41,653 nt of DNA from Myxococcales bacterium (GTDB lineage Bacteria; Myxococcota_A; Polyangia; Polyangiales; Polyangiaceae), in assembly GCA_013297655.1 (NCBI GenBank), contig JAAFHV010000029.1, positions 1-41,653 on the forward strand, in the 5' to 3' direction. Numbering within the stretch: the stretch's first letter is position 1; the number at the start of each line of letters is the position of its first letter. The notes under the pieces are model-generated. The model ran no database searches. It was not told the DNA's origin and worked only from the letters and a program-made list of their open reading frames with translations. Both the position numbers and the translations under genes were made by a program. Shown piece by piece: positions 5,101 to 14,207 of this stretch.

Positions 5101-7743
5101 CGCCGCCTCTTCGCGTTTCAAGAAGCGCTTCTCGAGGAGGTCGGCGAGGCGCAGGTGCGCGTCGATGCGAAGCTGCCCTTTGGCATGGGCGATGAGCTGC
5201 TTCAGCGACCACTCCACCTCGGCGTACCGATCGAACTTCTGGGCCGAGCGCTCGAACGAAAGGAGCGCGGCCACGTTCGTGGGATCGATCTCGATCGCGG
5301 CCTCGAAGTGGCGGATCGCCTCGCTCGGGATGCGCTGCGCCTCGCCGACCGCGATGTGGAGCGCCATCCGCTCACGCGGGAGCCGGGTGCGCTCGAGCGC
5401 GCGCTGGAGCATCTCGAGGTGGCCTTGGTGATCGCCCCGTGCGCGCGCGGCGTTCGCTTTCCGCACGAGCAGCACCGGGTGCGACGCGTCTGCCCGTTCG
5501 AGCTCGCTCACGTAAAAACCGGCCGCGTCGGGGCGCCCGATCGGGCCTTCGTACCAGCGGATGGCGTTCGCGAGGAGAGCGATACGCTCGGACGGACGCG
5601 CGTTCCCGAGGCGCTCCATCGTCATGTCGATGAGGGCGGGGAACTTGTCGAGGCGCGTGGCGAGGCCCTCGAGGCGCTCGACGATTTGTGGGTCGTCCGG
5701 GGTCGAGCCGTACGCCTCGAGCATGCCGTCGAAGGCCTGCGCGAAGTCCGACATCCGATCTTCGAGGACGCCCGCGAGGCGAAGCAGGAGGCGCGCGCGC
5801 GGCACCGGGCTCGGGGTGCGATCGAGGCGCGAGAGCAAGAGCTCGCACAAGTCTTCCCACCGCTGCTGGTCTTGGAGCGCGCGCTCTTCCGGGTCGGCCT
5901 CGCTCTGCCAAACCGGCGCGACCTTGACCGACGATTTTGGCTGATAAGAATTCGAGACGAGGAGCGCCGTGTGCGATCGCGGAGCCTCCGCGATCGCGGC
6001 CGATGCCTCGAGCGACACGAGCTCGGGCTCTCGCGCGTGGCCGTGGTCGCGCGCGGAATCGGGAGGCTCGAGATCCTGGTCGTCGTGTCGGAGGTCGTCT
6101 TGATGCTCGGGTGCGTACGAGCGGGCGTGCGGCGACTCGGAGGACACCGCTTGCGGCCACGCGGACGGTGGCACCGCGGTCTCCTGCGGGGTGTACGCGC
6201 TCTCGTCCGGAGCGGGAGGCACCTCGGTGCGCGACGAGGGATCGTCGTCGGGATCGTCGAAGTGCGCGCGTGCTGACTCGTCGGCAAACGACCGCAGCGA
6301 ACGTAGCGACCTTTGCGGGTCGGTCGCGAGGTCCTCCGGGTTCGAGTAACCCCTCATTTCAGCTAGGGATTTCGAGGGATCGGTGGCGAGATCCTCCGCA
6401 GCTCCGTAGCGGTCGCCCTTCATCGAAATCGAGGGCGCGAACGCTGGATCGAACGCGCGGCGCTGGCCGGTCTCGAGGAGGTTCATCGCGCCGGATCGGT
6501 TCGGATCGAACGACTCGAAATCGCCGGTCGTGAGGAGGAAGTCCTCCGGCTCCTCGCGCACCTGCGACGTACCCGGGTCGGGGTCGTCGACCGAGTCGAC
6601 CTCGTCGCTCCCCGTGCGCTCGACGAGGAGCTCGTTCGACAAGTCCTCCGCCGCGAGCGACGGCTCGTAGGCGATGCGCCCGTTCCGATCACGCGGCATG
6701 AGCCTCGGCACGATCGTGTTCGGCTCCGCGTCGATCTCCGCGTCGATCTCCGCCTCGATCTCGGCGGGGCGTCGGCCCGGCATCGGCACGATCGTCGCGT
6801 CGTCGATCCGCGCCTCGGTGGGGGGCTCGGAGTCCGGATCGCGCGGCATGATCCGCGGCACAATCGTGGGCTCGTCGAAGCTCACGGACACCGGCGCGCG
6901 CGCGGCTGCGATTTCGGACGTCGCCCACGGGTCGGCGTACGGCTGCCGAGCGGGCTTCACGTGCACCACCTCGATCGCGCGCTCCGGCACCTTCGCGAAC
7001 GCCACGCCATCGACCGAAGCGCGCTCGGGCGCACGAGGCGGACGAGCCGCGCTGGAGACCACCTCGTCGAGGAGCTCGCCCGGGTTCCAGTTCCCCGACT
7101 CTCCCTCTTGAATCGTCACCTTCGGGGCGGCGTAATCCATCGGCGCCGCGTCGGTTCGGGCCGGAAAGTGGGGCTTTGCGGGAGGGAACTGCGGCTTCGC
7201 GAGGGCGAACGGCTCCGCTTCGCTCTCTTGTGGCTGAAGCCCGCGCTGCGTCTCGCGCGCCATCGAGGGGATCTGGAGGTCGTTCGCGGTGTGCTCGTCG
7301 TCCGCGAAGGAGGAGCGCACCGGCGGTTTCCGCGGATAATCCATGCGGGTCATGGAATCCGGGCCCGGCTCGTCGACGCCGATCGCGGGCAACGCTTCGC
7401 TGTCGACGATCTCGTCGCGCGCGTCGCGCGGAAGCTTCACGGGCTCGTCGTCTCGACGCGACGCCCGCGCCTGACGGCGGAGCGCCTCGAGGTCGAGCTG
7501 GGCGGTGGCTTCGTCGTCGTCGTGCGCTGCCAAAAGAGATCCGACCGGCGGTGCGAGGACGTGGGGGTCGCACGGGATCGCGCGACCTTTGGGGGAGCCC
7601 GCCTGACCCCACGAAGATACCATGGGCAGAATCGGGGGGCCGAACAACGCGGGGAAACGATCCGCCATCTGGCGCGGCTCGCTGCGTTTTGTGCCGCGAA
7701 CCCGCCAACGGCCCTCGTCGCCGACCACGGACGGCCCTAACAC
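2185..7743 (-). CDS. giant acidic/TPR-repeat protein
   Basis: Up to 1,852 residues. Roughly the first 600 are low-complexity, acidic and Pro-rich, with internal repeats: three copies of a TIVPR(I/L)MPRD-like unit, the run AEIDAEIDAE, and two copies of a unit around EDLATDP. From about 620 to 1,500 are degenerate tetratricopeptide helical repeats (for example AIRHFEAAIEIDPTNVAAL), which normally mediate protein-protein contacts. About 300 further residues at the C-terminus match nothing I know. There is no signal peptide or membrane helix. The start is uncertain: GTG 7743 has AAGGGGAA just upstream, while ATG 7668 and ATG 7623 are in frame and lack ribosome sites. A scaffold role, perhaps with the adjacent kinase, is inferred. 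Confidence 0.85.
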   Translation of the reverse strand: MLGPSVVGDEGRWRVRGTKRSEPRQMADRFPALFGPPILPMVSSWGQAGSPKGRAIPCDPHVLAPPVGSLLAAHDDDEATAQLDLEALRRQARASRRDDEPVKLPRDARDEIVDSEALPAIGVDEPGPDSMTRMDYPRKPPVRSSFADDEHTANDLQIPSMARETQRGLQPQESEAEPFALAKPQFPPAKPHFPARTDAAPMDYAAPKVTIQEGESGNWNPGELLDEVVSSAARPPRAPERASVDGVAFAKVPERAIEVVHVKPARQPYADPWATSEIAAARAPVSVSFDEPTIVPRIMPRDPDSEPPTEARIDDATIVPMPGRRPAEIEAEIDAEIDAEPNTIVPRLMPRDRNGRIAYEPSLAAEDLSNELLVERTGSDEVDSVDDPDPGTSQVREEPEDFLLTTGDFESFDPNRSGAMNLLETGQRRAFDPAFAPSISMKGDRYGAAEDLATDPSKSLAEMRGYSNPEDLATDPQRSLRSLRSFADESARAHFDDPDDDPSSRTEVPPAPDESAYTPQETAVPPSAWPQAVSSESPHARSYAPEHQDDLRHDDQDLEPPDSARDHGHAREPELVSLEASAAIAEAPRSHTALLVSNSYQPKSSVKVAPVWQSEADPEERALQDQQRWEDLCELLLSRLDRTPSPVPRARLLLRLAGVLEDRMSDFAQAFDGMLEAYGSTPDDPQIVERLEGLATRLDKFPALIDMTMERLGNARPSERIALLANAIRWYEGPIGRPDAAGFYVSELERADASHPVLLVRKANAARARGDHQGHLEMLQRALERTRLPRERMALHIAVGEAQRIPSEAIRHFEAAIEIDPTNVAALLSFERSAQKFDRYAEVEWSLKQLIAHAKGQLRIDAHLRLADLLEKRFLKREEAAGVLRTLLQLVPGHREARISLEKCYLALRDFPRLVEAAGLRGASADTPREQGEAYAFAADIAETKLGDQVSAADNLRRATDADPTNETYLTRAAKLAERMQDPHALADYRGRLADILQDPVKRAQQYLAIAAMLDEPLAQRGYYERATRDDPSCAAAWEGLERIARELGDGGRAIAALRGRIEATESQRVKAQLWVELGAEHARAGDDAAATAAYDAGFRADPSNERAATAVLDALVAEGRFAEALPACELLVTAASRDRDSGLLYGRLRTSAKIAIGLGDLAKALGACVAAMDALPHERQPLIDVIEIMSRAPADSPLGPRADVAFERMLVRSAELEPDMLAKLGKLLASRGENARAVEVLLRVLDGADDGDAEATGQRPVPGDGRALFEVLSEALVATGDLARAADMKIRLSRVETSEDARYAALVSAIEILSHSLGDLPATRPVVEEALLLRPDDHWLLHTAMWLFGELDEWARLAEVLERIVRVQETPERRAKALFSFAQIVGDKLGDKARAADLYDQTLDADKTRLDAFEAQTRALDDISDFKGMEKAYRKMIARVRDDGDDELVFTLFRNLAQVYKDRLGDAELAAKALEGAKRVKPGDSMVKSAAVEILISQDELDKAVTLLRADLERDPYDRKSYELLYGVFLRQAKFDRALSTAQVLAELRAPTEEEARFLADYPPFALGVIPGSLVEEAWASHLYHRDLDPMLTSIFAWMTPAVCRMQEAAMSPDERMASFGKPLTRQLTRHADTIRQTFSDSCEILACVGPELLVARSARNLPFSPAKFPYGAMLVSPESLAGTETILPYLVGKRLAEQRPELAARGFFPAVSELTSMLATAVRVGLGERGSDPAAQKLDRALYQVMTDDERAAVNQAVSVAQAEGGKLDVRRWSQAADISSMRVGLLLAQDVRIAKRAVSAEPQGPSDLTPREKLGELYLFATGDLYADLRQAVGVNLADGGPTSSAIRG

Positions 7744-7746
7744 TTC

Positions 7747-7760
7747 CCCTTACGTAAGGG
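7747..7760. promoter_or_regulatory. perfect 14-bp palindrome, putative operator 1
   Basis: CCCTTACGTAAGGG is a perfect dyad. It lies directly before a good -35 hexamer (TTGACG, 7763-7768) of the ISC operon and directly upstream of the GTG at 7743 of the opposite gene. A related site occurs at 7805-7818. It is a candidate binding site for the MerR-type regulator encoded next door; that link is inference. Confidence 0.55.
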
Positions 7761-7762
7761 TC

Positions 7763-7795
7763 TTGACGCACCGGTCCTGGTTCGCTACCTAGATC
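7763..7795 (+). promoter_or_regulatory. putative promoter of the ISC operon
   Basis: TTGACG at 7763-7768 matches five of six -35 consensus bases. No strong -10 lies 17 bases downstream (TACCTA at 7786); CTAGAT or TAGATC at 7789-7795 would need a spacer of 20-21. A strong -35 with a weak or over-spaced -10 is typical of promoters activated by MerR-family proteins, which fits the adjacent regulator. The transcription start was not determined. Confidence 0.45.
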
Positions 7796-7804
7796 CAAGC
7801 CTCA

Positions 7805-7818
7805 CCCTTACGTGGGGG
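7805..7818. promoter_or_regulatory. degenerate copy of the palindrome, putative operator 2
   Basis: CCCTTACGTGGGGG shares its first nine bases and the final GGG with the palindrome at 7747-7760, 58 bp upstream. Its G-run also serves as the ribosome site for the ATG at 7825. A protein bound here could block transcription or translation of the operon's first gene. Confidence 0.45.
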
Positions 7819-7824
7819 TTTCCC

Positions 7825-8601
7825 ATGAGCATCCGCCTTCCCCTCCTCCAGAGCCTCTCCAGCCTGCCCTTGCCGCCCGAAATGGCGCAGGACACGTGCG
7901 GCGCGGCGTCCGGCCAGGCGAGCGGCCCCATGTTGCAAGTGGGGGATCTCGCTCGTGAATGCGGAAAAACGGTCCGCGCGATTCATCTCTACGAAGAGCT
8001 CGGGCTGCTCACCCCGCAAGGCCGCTCCAAGGGTCGCTACCGCCTCTACGCGAGCACCGCGGTCGTTCGTATTCGGTGGATCGGGAAGCTCCAAGACATG
8101 GGCTTCAGCCTGACCGACATCCAAAGTCTGGTCCGCGATTGGGACGACCAACGCTCCGCGGCGCGCACCATGGCGAAGATGCGCGAGCTCTACGCGAAGA
8201 AGCTCGCCGAGACGCAGGCCCACATCGAACGCCTCAAAGATCTCGAGCGCGAGATCGTGAGCAGCATCGACTACCTCGACGCATGCGACGTGTGCGATCC
8301 GGAGCGCCTCCTCGCTTCGTGCACCTCGTGCGAGCACCACGCCCACGGCACCACCGTACCGGAGCTCGTATCGGGCTACAGCGTGGCGGCCGGCACCCCG
8401 ATGCCCACCGGCTCGAGCCCCGCCCTCCCTGGACTTTCGAGCCCATCGCTCCCTACTCCCTCCTCGTCGTCGCCAACGTCGTCGCCCCCGTCGGGGCACG
8501 CGATCGACGCGCTCTCGACTTCTCCCACCGCGGGCCGACGGAAATCCGTCCTTATCTCACGGCCCGCACCGCCCGCACCGCCCCCGCGAGACATCCCATG
8601 A
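7825..8601 (+). CDS. MerR-family regulator with four-Cys motif, first gene of ISC operon
   Basis: 258 residues. A MerR winged-helix DNA-binding domain spans about 37-105 ([24 protein letters not shown], then GRYRLY), followed by a dimerisation helix at about 110-150. Next comes C154-x2-C157-x8-C166-x2-C169 with His at 171, 172 and 174. From about 190 on the tail is Ser/Pro-rich. A Cys cluster after the dimer helix is where SoxR and other MerR proteins bind their metal or Fe-S cofactor, so this is a plausible Fe-S or metal sensor. It occupies the position of IscR but is not an Rrf2 protein. ATG 7825 is chosen because GGGGG precedes it; ATG 7930 lacks a ribosome site. Its TGA overlaps the iscS ATG (ATGA). 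Confidence 0.88.
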
Positions 8602-9824
8602 CGTCCCTCAAGTTCCCCATCTTCATGGATTACCACTCGACGACGCCGGTCGACCGCCGCGTGCTCGACGAGATGATTCCCTATTTCACCGAAAAGTTCG
8701 GCAACGCCGCGAGCCGCAACCACGCCTTCGGCTGGAGCGCCGAAGAGGCGGTCGACCAGGCCCGTGAGCGGGTCGCGAAGCTCATCGGGGCGCAGAGCGA
8801 AAAGGAGATCGTGTTCACCTCCGGCGCCTCGGAGAGCAACAACCTGGCGCTCAAGGGCGTGGCCGAGTTCTACAAAGAAAAAGGCAATCACATCATTACC
8901 ACCGTGATCGAGCACAAGGCCGTGCTCGACACGTGCAAGCGCCTCGAGAGCGAGGGCTTCGAGGTGACGTACCTGCCTATCGAGGCCGACGGTCGCGTCT
9001 CGGTCGAGAAGGTCGCGAACGCGATCACCGACAAGACGATCTTGGTCTCCGTCATGCTCGCGAACAACGAGATCGGCACCGTGCAGCCCCTCGCCGAGAT
9101 TGGCAAGATCACCCGCGAGCGCGGAGTGCTCCTCCACACCGACGCGGTGCAGGGCGTGGGCAAGACCGCGTTCGACGTGCAAGCGATGAACGTGGACCTC
9201 GCCTCGATCACGGCGCACAAGATGTACGGACCGAAGGGGGTCGGCGCGCTCTACGTGCGACGGCAGAAGCCCCGCGTCCGCATCGCGGCGCAGATGGACG
9301 GCGGCGGCCACGAGCGCGGCATGCGCTCCGGAACGCTGAACGTGCCCGGCATCGTGGGCTTCGGCAAAGCCTGCGAAATCATGACCAACGAAGGCGTGGA
9401 AGAAGCGAAGAAGCTCCTCGCCCTCCGTGAGCGCCTCCGCACCCGCCTCATGTCGGAGCTCGACGAAGTGCACGTGAACGGCTCGATGGAGCACAGGCTC
9501 GCGGGCAACCTCAACGTGTCGTTCGCCTTCGTCGAGGGCGAGGCGATGATGATGGCGATCAAGGACGTGGCGGTGAGCTCCGGCTCGGCGTGCACCTCCG
9601 CCAGCCTCGAGCCGAGCTACGTGCTCCGCGCCCTCGGCGTGGGGGACGAGCTCGCCCACTCGAGCATTCGCTTCGGCCTCGGCCGCTTCACCACCGAAGC
9701 CGAGGTCGACTACGTGGCCGAGCTCGTCATCCGCAAAGTGCGTCACCTTCGCGACATGTCGCCCCTCTACGAAATGCACAAAGAGGGTATCGATCTTACC
9801 AAAGTGGAGTGGGCGCATCACTGA
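8598..9824 (+). CDS. iscS: cysteine desulfurase IscS
   Basis: A 408-residue PLP enzyme that converts cysteine to alanine and passes persulfide sulfur to IscU. The PLP lysine is K208 in [12 protein letters not shown], and the catalytic cysteine is C332 in the [21 protein letters not shown] loop region. The protein ends in WAHH, as E. coli IscS does, and the length matches (404 in E. coli). The frame is open upstream inside the regulator gene, but ATG 8598 begins the conserved N-terminus ([13 protein letters not shown]) and overlaps the regulator stop as ATGA, which indicates translational coupling. Confidence 0.97.
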
Positions 9825-9872: not shown

Positions 9873-10277
9873 ATGGCCTACAGCGACAAAGTCATCCAGC
9901 ACACCGAGAACCCGAAGAACGTCGGCACGCTCGACAAGGAAGATCCGAACGTGGGCACCGGCCTCGTCGGCGCTCCCGCGTGCGGCGACGTGATGCGCCT
10001 CCAAATCAAGGTCGGCGACGGCGGTGTCATCGAGGACGCGAAGTTCAAGACCTTTGGCTGCGGCTCCGCGATCGCCTCTTCTTCGCTCGCCACCGAGTGG
10101 CTCCGCGGAAAGACGCTCGACCAGGCCGAGGCGATCAAGAACTCCGACATCGTCGAGGAGCTCGATCTTCCCCCCGTGAAGATCCACTGCTCGGTCCTCG
10201 CCGAGGACGCGATCAAGAGCGCGATCGCCGACTATCGCCAAAAGCAGGGTAAGAAGCAGGCCGACAACAAGGCCTGA
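9873..10277 (+). CDS. iscU: Fe-S cluster assembly scaffold IscU
   Basis: A 134-residue scaffold on which [2Fe-2S] clusters are built from IscS sulfur and iron. The three cluster-ligand cysteines are present: C37 in PACGD, C63 in FGCGS and C106 in HCS, together with D39. The HscA-recognition motif LPPVK is at 99-103, matching the presence of hscA downstream. The C-terminus is a short Lys/Gln-rich tail. It starts 48 bases after iscS. Confidence 0.97.
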   Translation: MAYSDKVIQHTENPKNVGTLDKEDPNVGTGLVGAPACGDVMRLQIKVGDGGVIEDAKFKTFGCGSAIASSSLATEWLRGKTLDQAEAIKNSDIVEELDLPPVKIHCSVLAEDAIKSAIADYRQKQGKKQADNKA

Positions 10278-10290
10278 AGCGAGAATTGCC

Positions 10291-10701
10291 ATGAACTCCC
10301 CCCAAGAAGCGTCCTTCGCGACCACCGGCGAAAAGCCGCACGCCGAGAAAAAGACGCCGAGCATCACGGTGAGCCCTCGTGCCGTGGAAGCGATCAAAAA
10401 GCAGATCCAGAAGCGAAACGTGCCCGATACGTCGCTCCGCGTCGGCATTCGCGGGGGCGGCTGCTCGGGCTTCTCTTACGTCATCGAGTTCCACGACGGC
10501 GCTCCCCGCGCGCGCGACCACGTCTACGACCACGTCGCGAACGACGGAACCCCCGTGCGCGTGGTGGTCGATCCGAAGAGCCTCGTTTACCTGAACGGCA
10601 CGATGCTCGAGTGGGAAGAGAAGCTCCTCCAAAAGGGCTTCAAGTTCCTGAATCCGCAAGAGCAAGCGAGCTGCGGCTGCGGCCACAGCTTCCAGGTTTA
10701 G
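10291..10701 (+). CDS. iscA: A-type Fe-S carrier IscA
   Basis: 136 residues. The three conserved A-type cysteines are C58 (GGGCSGFSY) and C128/C130 (CGCGHSF), which bind iron or a cluster for delivery to apoproteins. About 22 residues at the N-terminus precede the conserved core (ITVSPRAVEAI), so the protein is longer than E. coli IscA (107 aa). The start at ATG 10291 is 13 bases after the iscU stop; a later start cannot be excluded. It could be named ErpA by sequence, but its place in the operon favours IscA. Confidence 0.94.
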   Translation: MNSPQEASFATTGEKPHAEKKTPSITVSPRAVEAIKKQIQKRNVPDTSLRVGIRGGGCSGFSYVIEFHDGAPRARDHVYDHVANDGTPVRVVVDPKSLVYLNGTMLEWEEKLLQKGFKFLNPQEQASCGCGHSFQV

Positions 10702-10897: not shown

Positions 10898-11419
10898 GTG
10901 AATCCCTTTTCCGAGCTCGGGCTCGCCGACACCTTCGAGGTCGATGTAAAAGCCCTCGAGAAGACACACCGCGACCTGTCGCGCGCGCTGCACCCCGACA
11001 GGTACGTGCAGGCGCCCGCGGGTGAGCGCCGGGTCGCGCTCGAGCGCGCCGTGCGTGTGAACGAGGCATTCCGCGCGGTGAAAGATCCGCTCTCGCGCGC
11101 CGAGGCCCTCTTCGCCCTCCGTGGCACACCGATCGGCGACGGCAAAGAGCCGAAGCCCGATCCCGACTTTTTGATGGACGTGCTCGAGAGCCGGGAGGCC
11201 CTTTCGGACGCGAAGGGCGAGAAGAACGCCGCCGCCGTCGCGAAGCTGAAGGCCGCCGCAGAGGCCAACCACGAGCGTGTTCTCGCCGCCCTCGGTGCCG
11301 TGTTCGCGAAGCCCGAAAAACCCGACGAGAGCGCGGTAAAGCTCCTCGGAAAGCTCCGATTTTTCCGCCGTTTTCTAGAAGAAGTGTCCGACGTGGAGGA
11401 CGACCTCGATGCTACTTGA
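10898..11419 (+). CDS. hscB: Fe-S co-chaperone HscB (J-domain protein)
   Basis: 173 residues. The J domain carries HPD at 32-34 (SRALHPDRY), which stimulates the ATPase of HscA; the C-terminal three-helix part (about 90-170) binds IscU. The length matches E. coli HscB (171). It starts with GTG, preceded by a purine-rich AAAGAGAAG. The last 11 bases overlap the start of hscA, indicating coupled translation. It lacks the N-terminal Cys-rich zinc domain seen in eukaryotic HSCB, as in other bacterial HscB. Confidence 0.95.
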   Translation: MNPFSELGLADTFEVDVKALEKTHRDLSRALHPDRYVQAPAGERRVALERAVRVNEAFRAVKDPLSRAEALFALRGTPIGDGKEPKPDPDFLMDVLESREALSDAKGEKNAAAVAKLKAAAEANHERVLAALGAVFAKPEKPDESAVKLLGKLRFFRRFLEEVSDVEDDLDAT

Positions 11420-13316
11420 GATCTTCGATCCGAAAGCGCCGCCGCGCGCGGTGGGCATCGACCTGGGCACCACGAACTCGCTCGTCGCCTACGTGCGCGA
11501 AGGGGTTCCGACCACGATCGAAAACTGCCACATGGAGACGCTCGTGCCGAGCGTGGTCCACTACGATCCGCGCGGGCACACCGTCGTCGGCAAAGACGCG
11601 GTGCCGCTCGCGCACGAGCACCCGCGCGAGACGATCGTGAGCGTGAAGCGCTTCATGGGCCGCGGGGCCGACGATCCGGAGACGAAGCGCCTCGGGCCCT
11701 ACGTGTTCATGCCCGCCGATCCATCGGGGCCGAACACCGTGCGCTTCGACGTGCGCGGAAAACCGGTTACGCCAGTGGAGGTGTCGGCCGAGATCCTGAA
11801 GTCGCTCCGCGAGCTGGCGGAGGACGAGCTCCGCACCGTCGGCGGCTGCGTGATCACGGTCCCGGCGTACTTCGACGATGGTCAACGGCAGGCCACGAAA
11901 GACGCCGCCCGCCTCGCCGGCCTCGACGTGCTGCGCCTCTTGAACGAGCCCACCGCCGCTGCTCTCGCGTATGGCCTCGAGAAGAAACAGAATGGCACCT
12001 TCGCGGTGTACGACCTCGGCGGCGGCACGTTCGACGTCACGATTCTTCTTTTGGAAGATGGCGTATTCCAGGTGAAATCCACCGGCGGCGACAGCGCCCT
12101 CGGCGGGGACGACATGGACCGCGCGCTCTTCGAGCACATGCTCGCGAGTGCCAAGAAAGAAGCGAGCACGCTGACACCGCACGAGGTGCGCGCCCTCCTC
12201 GACGCCGCCAAAGAGGTCAAACACGCGCTCACGAGCGCGGACACCGTCACGAAGACCTTGCCGCTTGCCGGCGAGCCGAGCGTCACGGTGACGCGCGCGG
12301 AGCTCGATACGCTCGTCGCGCCACTCTTGGAGCGTACCGGCCAAGCGAGCCGGCGCGCGATGAAAGACGCGGGCATAAAGCCAAAAGACCTCGACGGGGT
12401 GATTCTCGTCGGCGGCTCGACCCGCGTTCCGGCAGTGCGTGCTTACGTGGCCAAGCTCTTCGAGCACGAGCCCCTCTCCGACATCGATCCGGACAGCGTG
12501 GTCGCGCTCGGGGCGGCGGTGCAGGCCGATTTGCTCACGAACGCGGACCGCGAGGGCGAGGTGCTGCTCCTCGACGTGCTCCCGCTCTCGCTCGGGATCG
12601 AAGTGGGCGGCGGCGTGGTCGACAAGATTCTCGCTCGCAACACCACGATCCCTACTGGCGCGCGGAACACGTACACCACCCAAGAAGACAAACAGACCGG
12701 CTTCTTGCTTCACGTGGTGCAGGGAGAGCGCGAGCTCGCCGCCGACTGCCGTAGCCTCGCGCGGTTCGCGCTGAAGGGCATTCCGCCGATGCCGGCCGGC
12801 CTCGCGCGCCTCGAAATCACCTTCAAGGTGGACGCCGACGGTCTCCTCTCGGTTCACGCCCGCGAGACGACGACTGGAATCGAGCAGCGGGTGGAGGTGA
12901 AACCCTCGTATGGGCTCGACGACGACACGGTGGAGCGCATGCTCACCGAGGCGCTCGATCATGGGGAGTCGGATTTGCTGAAGAGGCGAATCCTCGAGGG
13001 CCGCGTGGAGGCCGAACGTGTCGCCTCCGCGACCGAAAAGGCGCTCGCGAACGACGGGCACCTCGTCTCCGCGGAGGAGCGCGCGCTCATCGAGTCTGCG
13101 ACCCGCGCCCTCCGTGAAGCGGCAGCGGGAGAGGATCCGCAGAAGATTCGCGCCCGCCTCGACGACCTCGATCGTGCAACCAAAGAGTTCGCCGGCCGCC
13201 GCATGAACGTGGCAGTCGCGCGTGCCCTCGCCGGACAGAACGTGGGCAACCTCGAAGAAGGGGTAAAACACGCAAAAGGCGTAGAAAACGCCCACGTCGA
13301 ACGCCCCATCGATTAA
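11409..13316 (+). CDS. hscA: Fe-S chaperone HscA (Hsp70 family)
   Basis: 635 residues; E. coli HscA has 616. The Hsp70 ATPase domain spans about 14-390, with IDLGTTNSLVAYV, DLGGGTFDVTIL and a VGGSTRVPAV signature. The substrate domain follows with DVLPLSLGIEVGGG, a typical HscA/DnaK junction. With HscB it acts on the LPPVK motif of IscU to promote cluster release. ATG 11409 lies inside the hscB 3' end. A long antisense frame over this gene (11412-13958) is a composition shadow. Confidence 0.96.
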   Translation: MLLEIFDPKAPPRAVGIDLGTTNSLVAYVREGVPTTIENCHMETLVPSVVHYDPRGHTVVGKDAVPLAHEHPRETIVSVKRFMGRGADDPETKRLGPYVFMPADPSGPNTVRFDVRGKPVTPVEVSAEILKSLRELAEDELRTVGGCVITVPAYFDDGQRQATKDAARLAGLDVLRLLNEPTAAALAYGLEKKQNGTFAVYDLGGGTFDVTILLLEDGVFQVKSTGGDSALGGDDMDRALFEHMLASAKKEASTLTPHEVRALLDAAKEVKHALTSADTVTKTLPLAGEPSVTVTRAELDTLVAPLLERTGQASRRAMKDAGIKPKDLDGVILVGGSTRVPAVRAYVAKLFEHEPLSDIDPDSVVALGAAVQADLLTNADREGEVLLLDVLPLSLGIEVGGGVVDKILARNTTIPTGARNTYTTQEDKQTGFLLHVVQGERELAADCRSLARFALKGIPPMPAGLARLEITFKVDADGLLSVHARETTTGIEQRVEVKPSYGLDDDTVERMLTEALDHGESDLLKRRILEGRVEAERVASATEKALANDGHLVSAEERALIESATRALREAAAGEDPQKIRARLDDLDRATKEFAGRRMNVAVARALAGQNVGNLEEGVKHAKGVENAHVERPID

Positions 13317-13337: not shown

Positions 13338-13688
13338 GTGCCGATCGTCGTTTTCAAGGGATACGCGGAAGTCGAAGTACCAATTGGCACGAGCCTCCTC
13401 AAGGCCGCGCAAAAGGTCGACGCGCCGGAGGGCTACGCCTGCGGAGGTGTCTGCGCGTGCTCCACGTGCCACGTCTACGTGCTGGCCGGCGCCAACCTGC
13501 TCTCGTCCGCCGAGGACGAAGAGGAGGACATCCTCGACAAAGCCTTCGACGTGCGCGCCACCTCGCGTCTCGGCTGCCAAGCCAAGATCGAGAAGGACGG
13601 GAAGATCGAAGTGGAGATTACCCGCGAGAGCCTGCAAGCCTTCGAGAACGAGCACCCGGAGCACCGCGGGAAATACGTGAAGCGCTGA
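13338..13688 (+). CDS. fdx: ISC-type [2Fe-2S] ferredoxin
   Basis: 116 residues of the adrenodoxin-like class. The ligands are C35, C41, C44 (C-x5-C-x2-C) and C80. An extra Cys at 39 corresponds to the non-ligand cysteine typical of ISC ferredoxins. It supplies electrons for cluster assembly. The start is GTG with a GAAGAGAGAG purine run upstream. It is the last recognisable gene of the operon; no iscX follows. Confidence 0.95.
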   Translation: MPIVVFKGYAEVEVPIGTSLLKAAQKVDAPEGYACGGVCACSTCHVYVLAGANLLSSAEDEEEDILDKAFDVRATSRLGCQAKIEKDGKIEVEITRESLQAFENEHPEHRGKYVKR

Positions 13689-13694
13689 CGGGCC

Positions 13695-13966
13695 GGGGGT
13701 TCTGTGCGCGCGGCGCACGGGGCCGGGGGGAGGAAGAGACGCGGGGCCGGCGGGACACGGCCGCGGGTCGGCACCGTTTTGGGCGATGGGTTTTGTGCGC
13801 GGGGCGCACGGGGCCGGTGGGGGGAAAGAGAGACGCGGGGCCGGCGACGGCCGCGGGTCGGCACGGTTTTGGGCGATGGGGTTTGTGCGCGGGGCGCACG
13901 GGGCCGGTGGGGGGAAAGAGAGACGCGGGGCCGGCGGGAGACGGCCGCGGGTCGGCACGGTTTTGG
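13695..13966. repeat. three tandem ~90-bp repeats with internal hairpins
   Basis: Three consecutive units begin near 13695, 13788 and 13878. The hairpin stems GTGCGC/GCGCAC at 13704, 13795 and 13885 show periods of 91 and 90 bp. Units 2 and 3 are nearly identical; unit 1 is more diverged. Each has a 6-bp perfect stem with a 3-base loop, then a G-rich run (GGTGGGGGGAAAGAGAGACG). The units lie just after the fdx stop, so they could end transcription or protect the operon mRNA, but there is no T-run. Confidence 0.85.
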
Positions 13967-14147
13967 GGCGCTGGCGGGCCCCTCCGCAATCTCGGCATCG
14001 TTCCGCGCGGTGGCCATTCCGAGGTCGCGAGCCTGGCCGGCGGTGGCCATTCGCTACCGCGCGGGAACGCTGCTCTCAGACAGTGACGGCCCCTCCCGCC
14101 AGCGCCCCAAAACCGCGCCCACCCACAGCCTTCCCTCGTCCGCGCGA

Positions 14148-14207
<60 letters not shown>

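Follow-up and report, generated by a model that had tools for sequence, protein, structure and literature searches.

A four-cysteine MerR-family protein heading isc operons is probably a separately evolved feedback repressor of Fe-S biogenesis in many myxobacteria

SoxR and CueR are MerR-family proteins that act as ligand-bound activators from a stretched promoter spacer, and in spacer activators of this type (SoxR, CueR, ZntR) the operator lies within the 19-20-bp interval between the -35 and -10 elements. SoxR holds its cluster on a C-x2-C-x-C-x5-C motif, and we know of no other MerR-family Fe-S protein. Two regulators of isc operons, IscR of Escherichia coli and RisR of Myxococcus xanthus, are built on the Rrf2 scaffold. 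According to the main text of PMC9973013, holo-RisR represses both isc and suf of M. xanthus, with an isc site that covers most of the -10 element and the start; RisR has a probable [4Fe-4S] cluster, its gene lies with suf, and it recognizes the site TkGAC-N7-GTCCw. The same text describes ArsR-like suf regulators, which have another fold and are linked to SUF, as a non-Rrf2 scaffold recruited to Fe-S biogenesis (PMC9973013).

Here we report that the isc operon of the window (the whole stretch of 41,653 nucleotides of Myxococcales DNA that was analysed) is headed by a four-Cys protein of the MerR family (Table 1), which in many myxobacteria is probably a separately evolved feedback repressor. 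The original prediction had placed this gene in front of iscS-iscU-iscA-hscB-hscA-fdx, with an ATGA overlap with iscS. Open reading frames and profile matches confirmed this arrangement: the stop codon TGA of the regulator (8599-8601) overlaps the start codon ATG of iscS (8598-8600). IscA and Fdx of the window satisfy the broader models and not the strict equivalogs. A 90-bp tandem repeat in three copies (90% matches, window 13697-13967) lies directly 3' of fdx, and an AG dinucleotide run of 29 copies at 89% matches (window 14148-14205) is located downstream of the operon.

Table 1. Promoter elements, regulator gene and isc genes of the window, in window coordinates.
Feature	Position	Strand	Basis or remark
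Operator-like dyad O1, just upstream of the -35	7740..7761	.	matrix score 22.5
Predicted -35, TTGACG	7763..7768	+	predicted by reading the sequence
Predicted -10, TACCTA, 17-bp spacer	7786..7791	+	predicted by reading the sequence
Operator-like dyad O2, at the expected start site	7798..7819	.	matrix score 17.7
Four-Cys MerR-family regulator, 258 aa	7825..8601	+	ATG start; first gene of the isc operon
Cys154-Cys169 codons, C-x2-C-x8-C-x2-C	8284..8331	+	sequence; invariant in 71/71 rows
iscS	8598..9824	+	TIGR02006 over cut-off
iscU	9873..10277	+	TIGR01999 over cut-off
iscA-type carrier	10291..10701	+	TIGR00049 over cut-off, TIGR02011 under
hscB	10898..11419	+	TIGR00714 over cut-off
hscA	11409..13316	+	TIGR01991 over cut-off
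fdx, 2Fe-2S ferredoxin	13338..13688	+	Pfam Fer2 over cut-off, TIGR02007 under

The regulator exceeds the cut-offs of three Pfam models, MerR_1 (PF13411), MerR (PF00376) and MerR-DNA-bind (PF09278), and its predicted structure (mean pLDDT 82.6) consists of a MerR winged helix-turn-helix, a helix of 43 residues and a loop bearing the Cys; this loop (block means 68 and 71) and the tail are modelled with less confidence. The top structural matches of the model are MerR proteins (CadR, Z 12.8; NmlR, 12.4; SoxR structure 2zhg, Z 11.3, rmsd 4.1, 112 aligned). The Pfam matches and the fold thus place it in the MerR superfamily, with the DNA-binding domain and dimer helix that had been anticipated. The Rrf2 family is absent from its Pfam matches, and it does not belong with IscR and RisR. 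The start codon at 7825 is plausible, since the residues ahead of position 36 can be aligned in several close relatives, whose matches begin at residue 1-5.

Furthermore, the protein could not be assigned to any of the MerR types tested. In sequence and in structure it comes closest to CueR, ZntR and CadR, through its DNA-binding and dimer regions, but it falls far under the equivalog cut-offs, and CueR (67.6 against 147.4 bits), ZntR (58.4 against 167.95), MerR (57.9 against 150.85) and CadR/PbrR (52.4 against 151.45) were all rejected. SoxR, likewise of MerR fold and with clustered Cys beyond the dimer helix, was rejected with 47.4 bits for TIGR01950 against a cut-off of 116.9. In a PDB profile search, known MerRs matched the DNA-binding and dimer parts only and mostly stopped before the Cys loop, the CueR, ZntR and CadR matches ending at position 110-112, ahead of that loop.

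Relatives were collected by scanning one genome per species with six peptide patterns, one of which spans the first two Cys. This yielded 70 loci from Myxococcales, Polyangiaceae, other Myxococcota or Deltaproteobacteria, and Candidatus Eisenbacteria, three being labelled as Proteobacteria only. Another of the six patterns, RAIHLYEE, shows no variation across the 52 rows of alignment A1, which begins at residue 36 and in which Cys154, 157, 166 and 169 of the window protein are C119, C122, C131 and C134. The predicted motif C154-x2-C157-x8-C166-x2-C169 was borne out, and the question of whether orthologues conserve it received a clear answer: all four Cys are kept in 71/71 aligned rows, the first two being covered by one search pattern. 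Two residues (53 rows) or three (18 rows) separate the first Cys from the second, and eight (62), nine (8) or 25 (1) the second from the third. The spacing C-x2/3-C-x8/9-C-x2-C therefore describes 70 of the 71 rows and differs from the SoxR motif, as had been proposed. The several His residues expected after the fourth Cys are present in the window protein as EHHAH, but four of the 71 rows have no His within eight residues.

Sequence comparison also established that the regulator gene is linked to Fe-S assembly operons. iscS lies directly 3' of it in 56 of the 70 loci, with an extrapolated gap of -14 to +62 bases. In the Eisenbacteria group (12/70) the next gene is iscA (11 loci) or sufC (one), and seven of these loci continue to sufS and sufU; the gene order in locus L062, for instance, is MerR, iscA type, sufC, sufB, a 419-aa ORF, sufS, sufU. 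An Fe-S assembly gene, iscS or that of an iscA/suf operon, thus comes next in 68/70 loci. The two loci with neither are L012, where the stretch ends at the gene, and L070, a long-branched Eisenbacteria row. A chance neighbourhood was rejected, as the linkage recurs across loci and genomes. We also observed that the sufB gene of L062 (L062:10726-13215) encodes 830 aa in which SufBD parts (51-205 and 593-801) flank a long insert matching LAGLIDADG; this insert is probably an intein, judging from the matches.

The linkage was surveyed in 188 Myxococcota genomes selected with a completeness filter of 90. The family was bounded at E<=4e-40, a limit placed at the gap in the match list once that list was known (next match, 2.4e-32). 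Under this bound 58 genomes carry the family, 51 carry HscA over its cut-off and 50 carry both (Fisher p 7e-36). In 45 of these 50 genomes the MerR gene is followed on its own strand, within 5 kb, by the HscA gene, and the three inspected among the other five (G055, G085 and G023) keep MerR-iscS-iscU-iscA-hscB together. In the sole HscA genome without the family, G185, the contig is cut before iscU. Eight family genomes have no HscA over the cut-off, among them G089, which has only a sigma-linked copy of the kind described below. In 14 further Myxococcota genomes the family is absent and HscA is more remote (E<=1e-200, below its cut-off); no MerR match was found beside iscS in the four of them that were inspected. 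ISC can therefore do without the four-Cys MerR. Thirteen Eisenbacteria genomes that already had a match contain one family member each, as expected.

IscR appears to be missing from this setting. The TIGR02010 cut-off was exceeded in none of the 188 Myxococcota genomes, and weaker matches at 1e-25 were present in 64, of which 14 also carry the four-Cys MerR family. The genome of the window, a 546-contig draft that is 97.6% complete, has no TIGR02010 match at 1e-25. Its only Rrf2 protein over the cut-off is encoded on another contig and has two Cys (positions 103 and 134), not the three of IscR and RisR; a further Rrf2 match (L002) is weak, partial and under the cut-off. An IscR elsewhere in this genome was accordingly rejected, in keeping with the idea that the MerR protein stands in the place of IscR, and as the genome is a draft this absence is strong, not absolute. 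Of the three conditions that the original prediction gave as refuting it, two, unconserved Cys and a normal IscR, thus came out in its favour. SufB had no match in the window genome, so that SUF was rejected as a second system and, as far as a draft can show, ISC appears to be the only machinery for cluster assembly present. Across the phylum SufB (E<=1e-60) was found in 100/188 genomes, in 0/51 HscA genomes and in 5/58 family genomes.

The regulator invites comparison with the two Rrf2 proteins. It resembles IscR of E. coli in heading the isc operon, in being, as proposed here, a Cys-liganded regulator, and in the feedback loop that we propose; however, IscR is an Rrf2 protein with three Cys (PMC9973013), whereas this is a four-Cys MerR with another operator. 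With RisR it shares the phylum and, by analogy, the proposed role of holo-repressor at the isc start. It differs in that RisR, as the main text of PMC9973013 has it, is an Rrf2 protein encoded with suf, while the window genome has neither a SufB match nor a three-Cys Rrf2 protein over the cut-off.

We observed that the short words ACCCTTAC and ACGTAAGG recur upstream of the regulator genes and resolve into one 22-bp dyad, ACCCTnACGynnrCGTnAGGGT, the predicted operator. Row L026, one of the 71, was left out of the count for lack of sufficient upstream sequence. At 13 or more of 16 positions the dyad was found in 64/70 upstreams, against 0.15 expected from shuffles. A dyad matrix placed 68/70 upstreams above the 99% shuffle score and 66/70 above all 1400 shuffles; the upstreams counted here had also served to derive the consensus and the matrix, and the shuffles were scored alike. 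Two upstreams fell short of the 99% score: that of L016, where a site occurs at a greater distance, and that of L041. Nine of the 70 upstreams have two sites over 10, including that of the window, whose O1 and O2 are imperfect matches to the dyad and the only sites over 10 in its 41.6 kb.

The main caution comes from a sister clade, of which 12 of 13 weak matches (E 1e-26 to 1e-32; L118-L129) were fetched. An 88-row tree set this clade apart, at 100/100 support, from the family together with its near copies. CxxC-x8/9-CxxC is present in all 12 of these MerRs, which belong to Myxococcota; within the stretches fetched, their loci contain no isc gene, and the operator is likewise absent (best matrix score -9.3). 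The Cys site may thus be older than the isc link or independent of it. Since the sister MerRs carry the motif without isc genes, the motif alone is no proof of a cluster and may bind structural zinc.

The main rival to a cluster or iron sensor is a zinc or thiol sensor, in which the four Cys would form a structural or regulatory zinc site or a thiol switch and the protein would repress the operon while sensing zinc, copper, cadmium or disulfide stress. These stresses damage clusters, CxxC...CxxC is a common zinc-binding arrangement, and by score CueR, ZntR, MerR and CadR are the named families closest to the protein. The ACCCT half-site also resembles those of some metal-responsive MerRs, and by Pfam 2/12 sister loci lie near genes for GTP cyclohydrolase, type I in L119 and type II in L128, both of which are zinc enzymes. 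On the other hand, the family is linked to Fe-S assembly operons of two types and is present where IscR was not found, and we consider zinc or thiol sensing rather unlikely, while keeping it in view. L128 also has a gene with a LON substrate-binding domain close by.

Returning to a repressor that senses cluster or iron, the position of the dyad in the promoter is informative. A TTGAC box is located 19-55 bp upstream of the best site in 53/66 cases (2.15 expected), and 13/66 sites have no such box in range. The best -10 spacing in the 53 promoters is 17 bp in 36, 20-21 bp in three and 19 bp in none. In all 53 the dyad starts 24-44 bp past the start of the -35, and it therefore spans the -10 to beyond the expected transcription start. 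The window does not count among these 53, since O1, the site that scores best there, precedes the -35. Read from promoter sequences, the position of the dyad is mostly repressor-like, at the start site, unlike the stretched spacer from which SoxR and CueR act. The MerR fold, and the way SoxR and CueR work, would suit a classical activator whose ligand-bound form untwists a stretched spacer and switches isc on. However, the best site lies outside the spacer in 53/53 promoters with a -35, and an operator inside a 19-20-bp spacer was seen in none of them. As the first range omitted 0-18 bp, TTGAC boxes at that distance were checked apart, which added a single site of 66, in L008; its second site is placed as in the others, and L008 is a possible exception. 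Activation from the spacer is thus improbable.

Across the 957 kb of loci, a single site scoring above 18 was found outside the 330 bp that precede the conserved domain, and that one lies 379 bp ahead of such a domain. In the window genome the pattern at two mismatches gave 62 sites against 32 for a reversed control, and O1 and O2 were not among the matches listed, so that no regulon can be read from this genome. A longer pattern gave eight sites in 56 genomes, six just before a family gene and two in family-free genomes, and its reversed control gave three. At two mismatches this longer pattern matched no more than 5 of the 14 genomes in that set that carry the family, indicating that the operator pattern is strict. 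This near confinement of the operator to the regulator's own promoter in the scanned loci would also fit a ligand-free autoregulator that keeps operon output steady and needs its Cys for folding, but the four Cys are invariant in an otherwise mostly variable loop, where relatives bind their effector, and we give this reading very little credence.

We judge it likely that the four-Cys MerR is a dedicated autorepressor of the Fe-S biogenesis operon that it heads, sensing cluster or iron. A MerR-type dimer would bind the 22-bp dyad at the start site, with a second copy just upstream of the -35 in the window, and would so block RNA polymerase at promoters whose 17-bp spacer is of normal length. 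Situated where the dimer helix ends, in the region that MerR relatives use for their effector, the four Cys would most likely hold an Fe-S cluster (or iron) supplied by the products of the same operon. The holo form would repress, and cluster loss under iron starvation or oxidative stress would free the operon, a circuit equivalent to the IscR/RisR feedback loop built on an unrelated protein scaffold. The original prediction spoke of an Fe-S or iron sensor for the ISC system. Its first half, a regulator belonging to the ISC system itself, is well supported by the linkage to ISC and SUF operons and the shared promoter operator, whereas the Fe-S or iron ligand, like the binding of this protein to this operator, the repression that would follow and the form that binds, is what we infer.

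We also lean, by a little, towards seeing in this protein a third scaffold after Rrf2 and the ArsR-like suf regulators (which we take to be SufR), that is, an independently recruited Fe-S sensor in the form of a start-site-repressing four-Cys MerR that would rule Myxococcota ISC and Eisenbacteria SUF without untwisting a spacer. The proposed circuit (IscR, RisR) and the MerR fold are already known; a four-Cys MerR in that circuit would be new. No description of such an isc regulator was found in the open-access papers searched, judged by titles and abstract starts, and the main text of PMC9973013 contains the word MerR 0 times. Few cases are known of how IscR-free bacteria match Fe-S supply to demand. 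Here, a Myxococcota group that apparently relies on ISC alone, without IscR, has one dedicated regulator in common, whose operator can be read and whose four-Cys site does not vary, and the operator makes the target and mechanism of the regulator directly testable. If the ligand is a cluster, the protein would join SoxR as a second kind of Fe-S protein within the MerR family, and its recruitment would be clearly convergent.

Second four-Cys MerR copies were also found in one Myxococcota family, where they precede a sigma-factor-like gene in all three examined loci (L101, L102, L107). Sigma-70 regions 2 and 4 were confirmed by Pfam in L102 and recognized by eye in L101 and L107, and in genome G036 an operator-like dyad lies upstream of the sigma-linked copy. 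The MerR scaffold is thus not confined to Fe-S genes. Furthermore, in two genomes of another family (L105 and L112) a four-Cys MerR gene stands just before a cysteine desulfurase gene, the product of which is 37-38% identical to IscS of the window, with SufB encoded on another contig.
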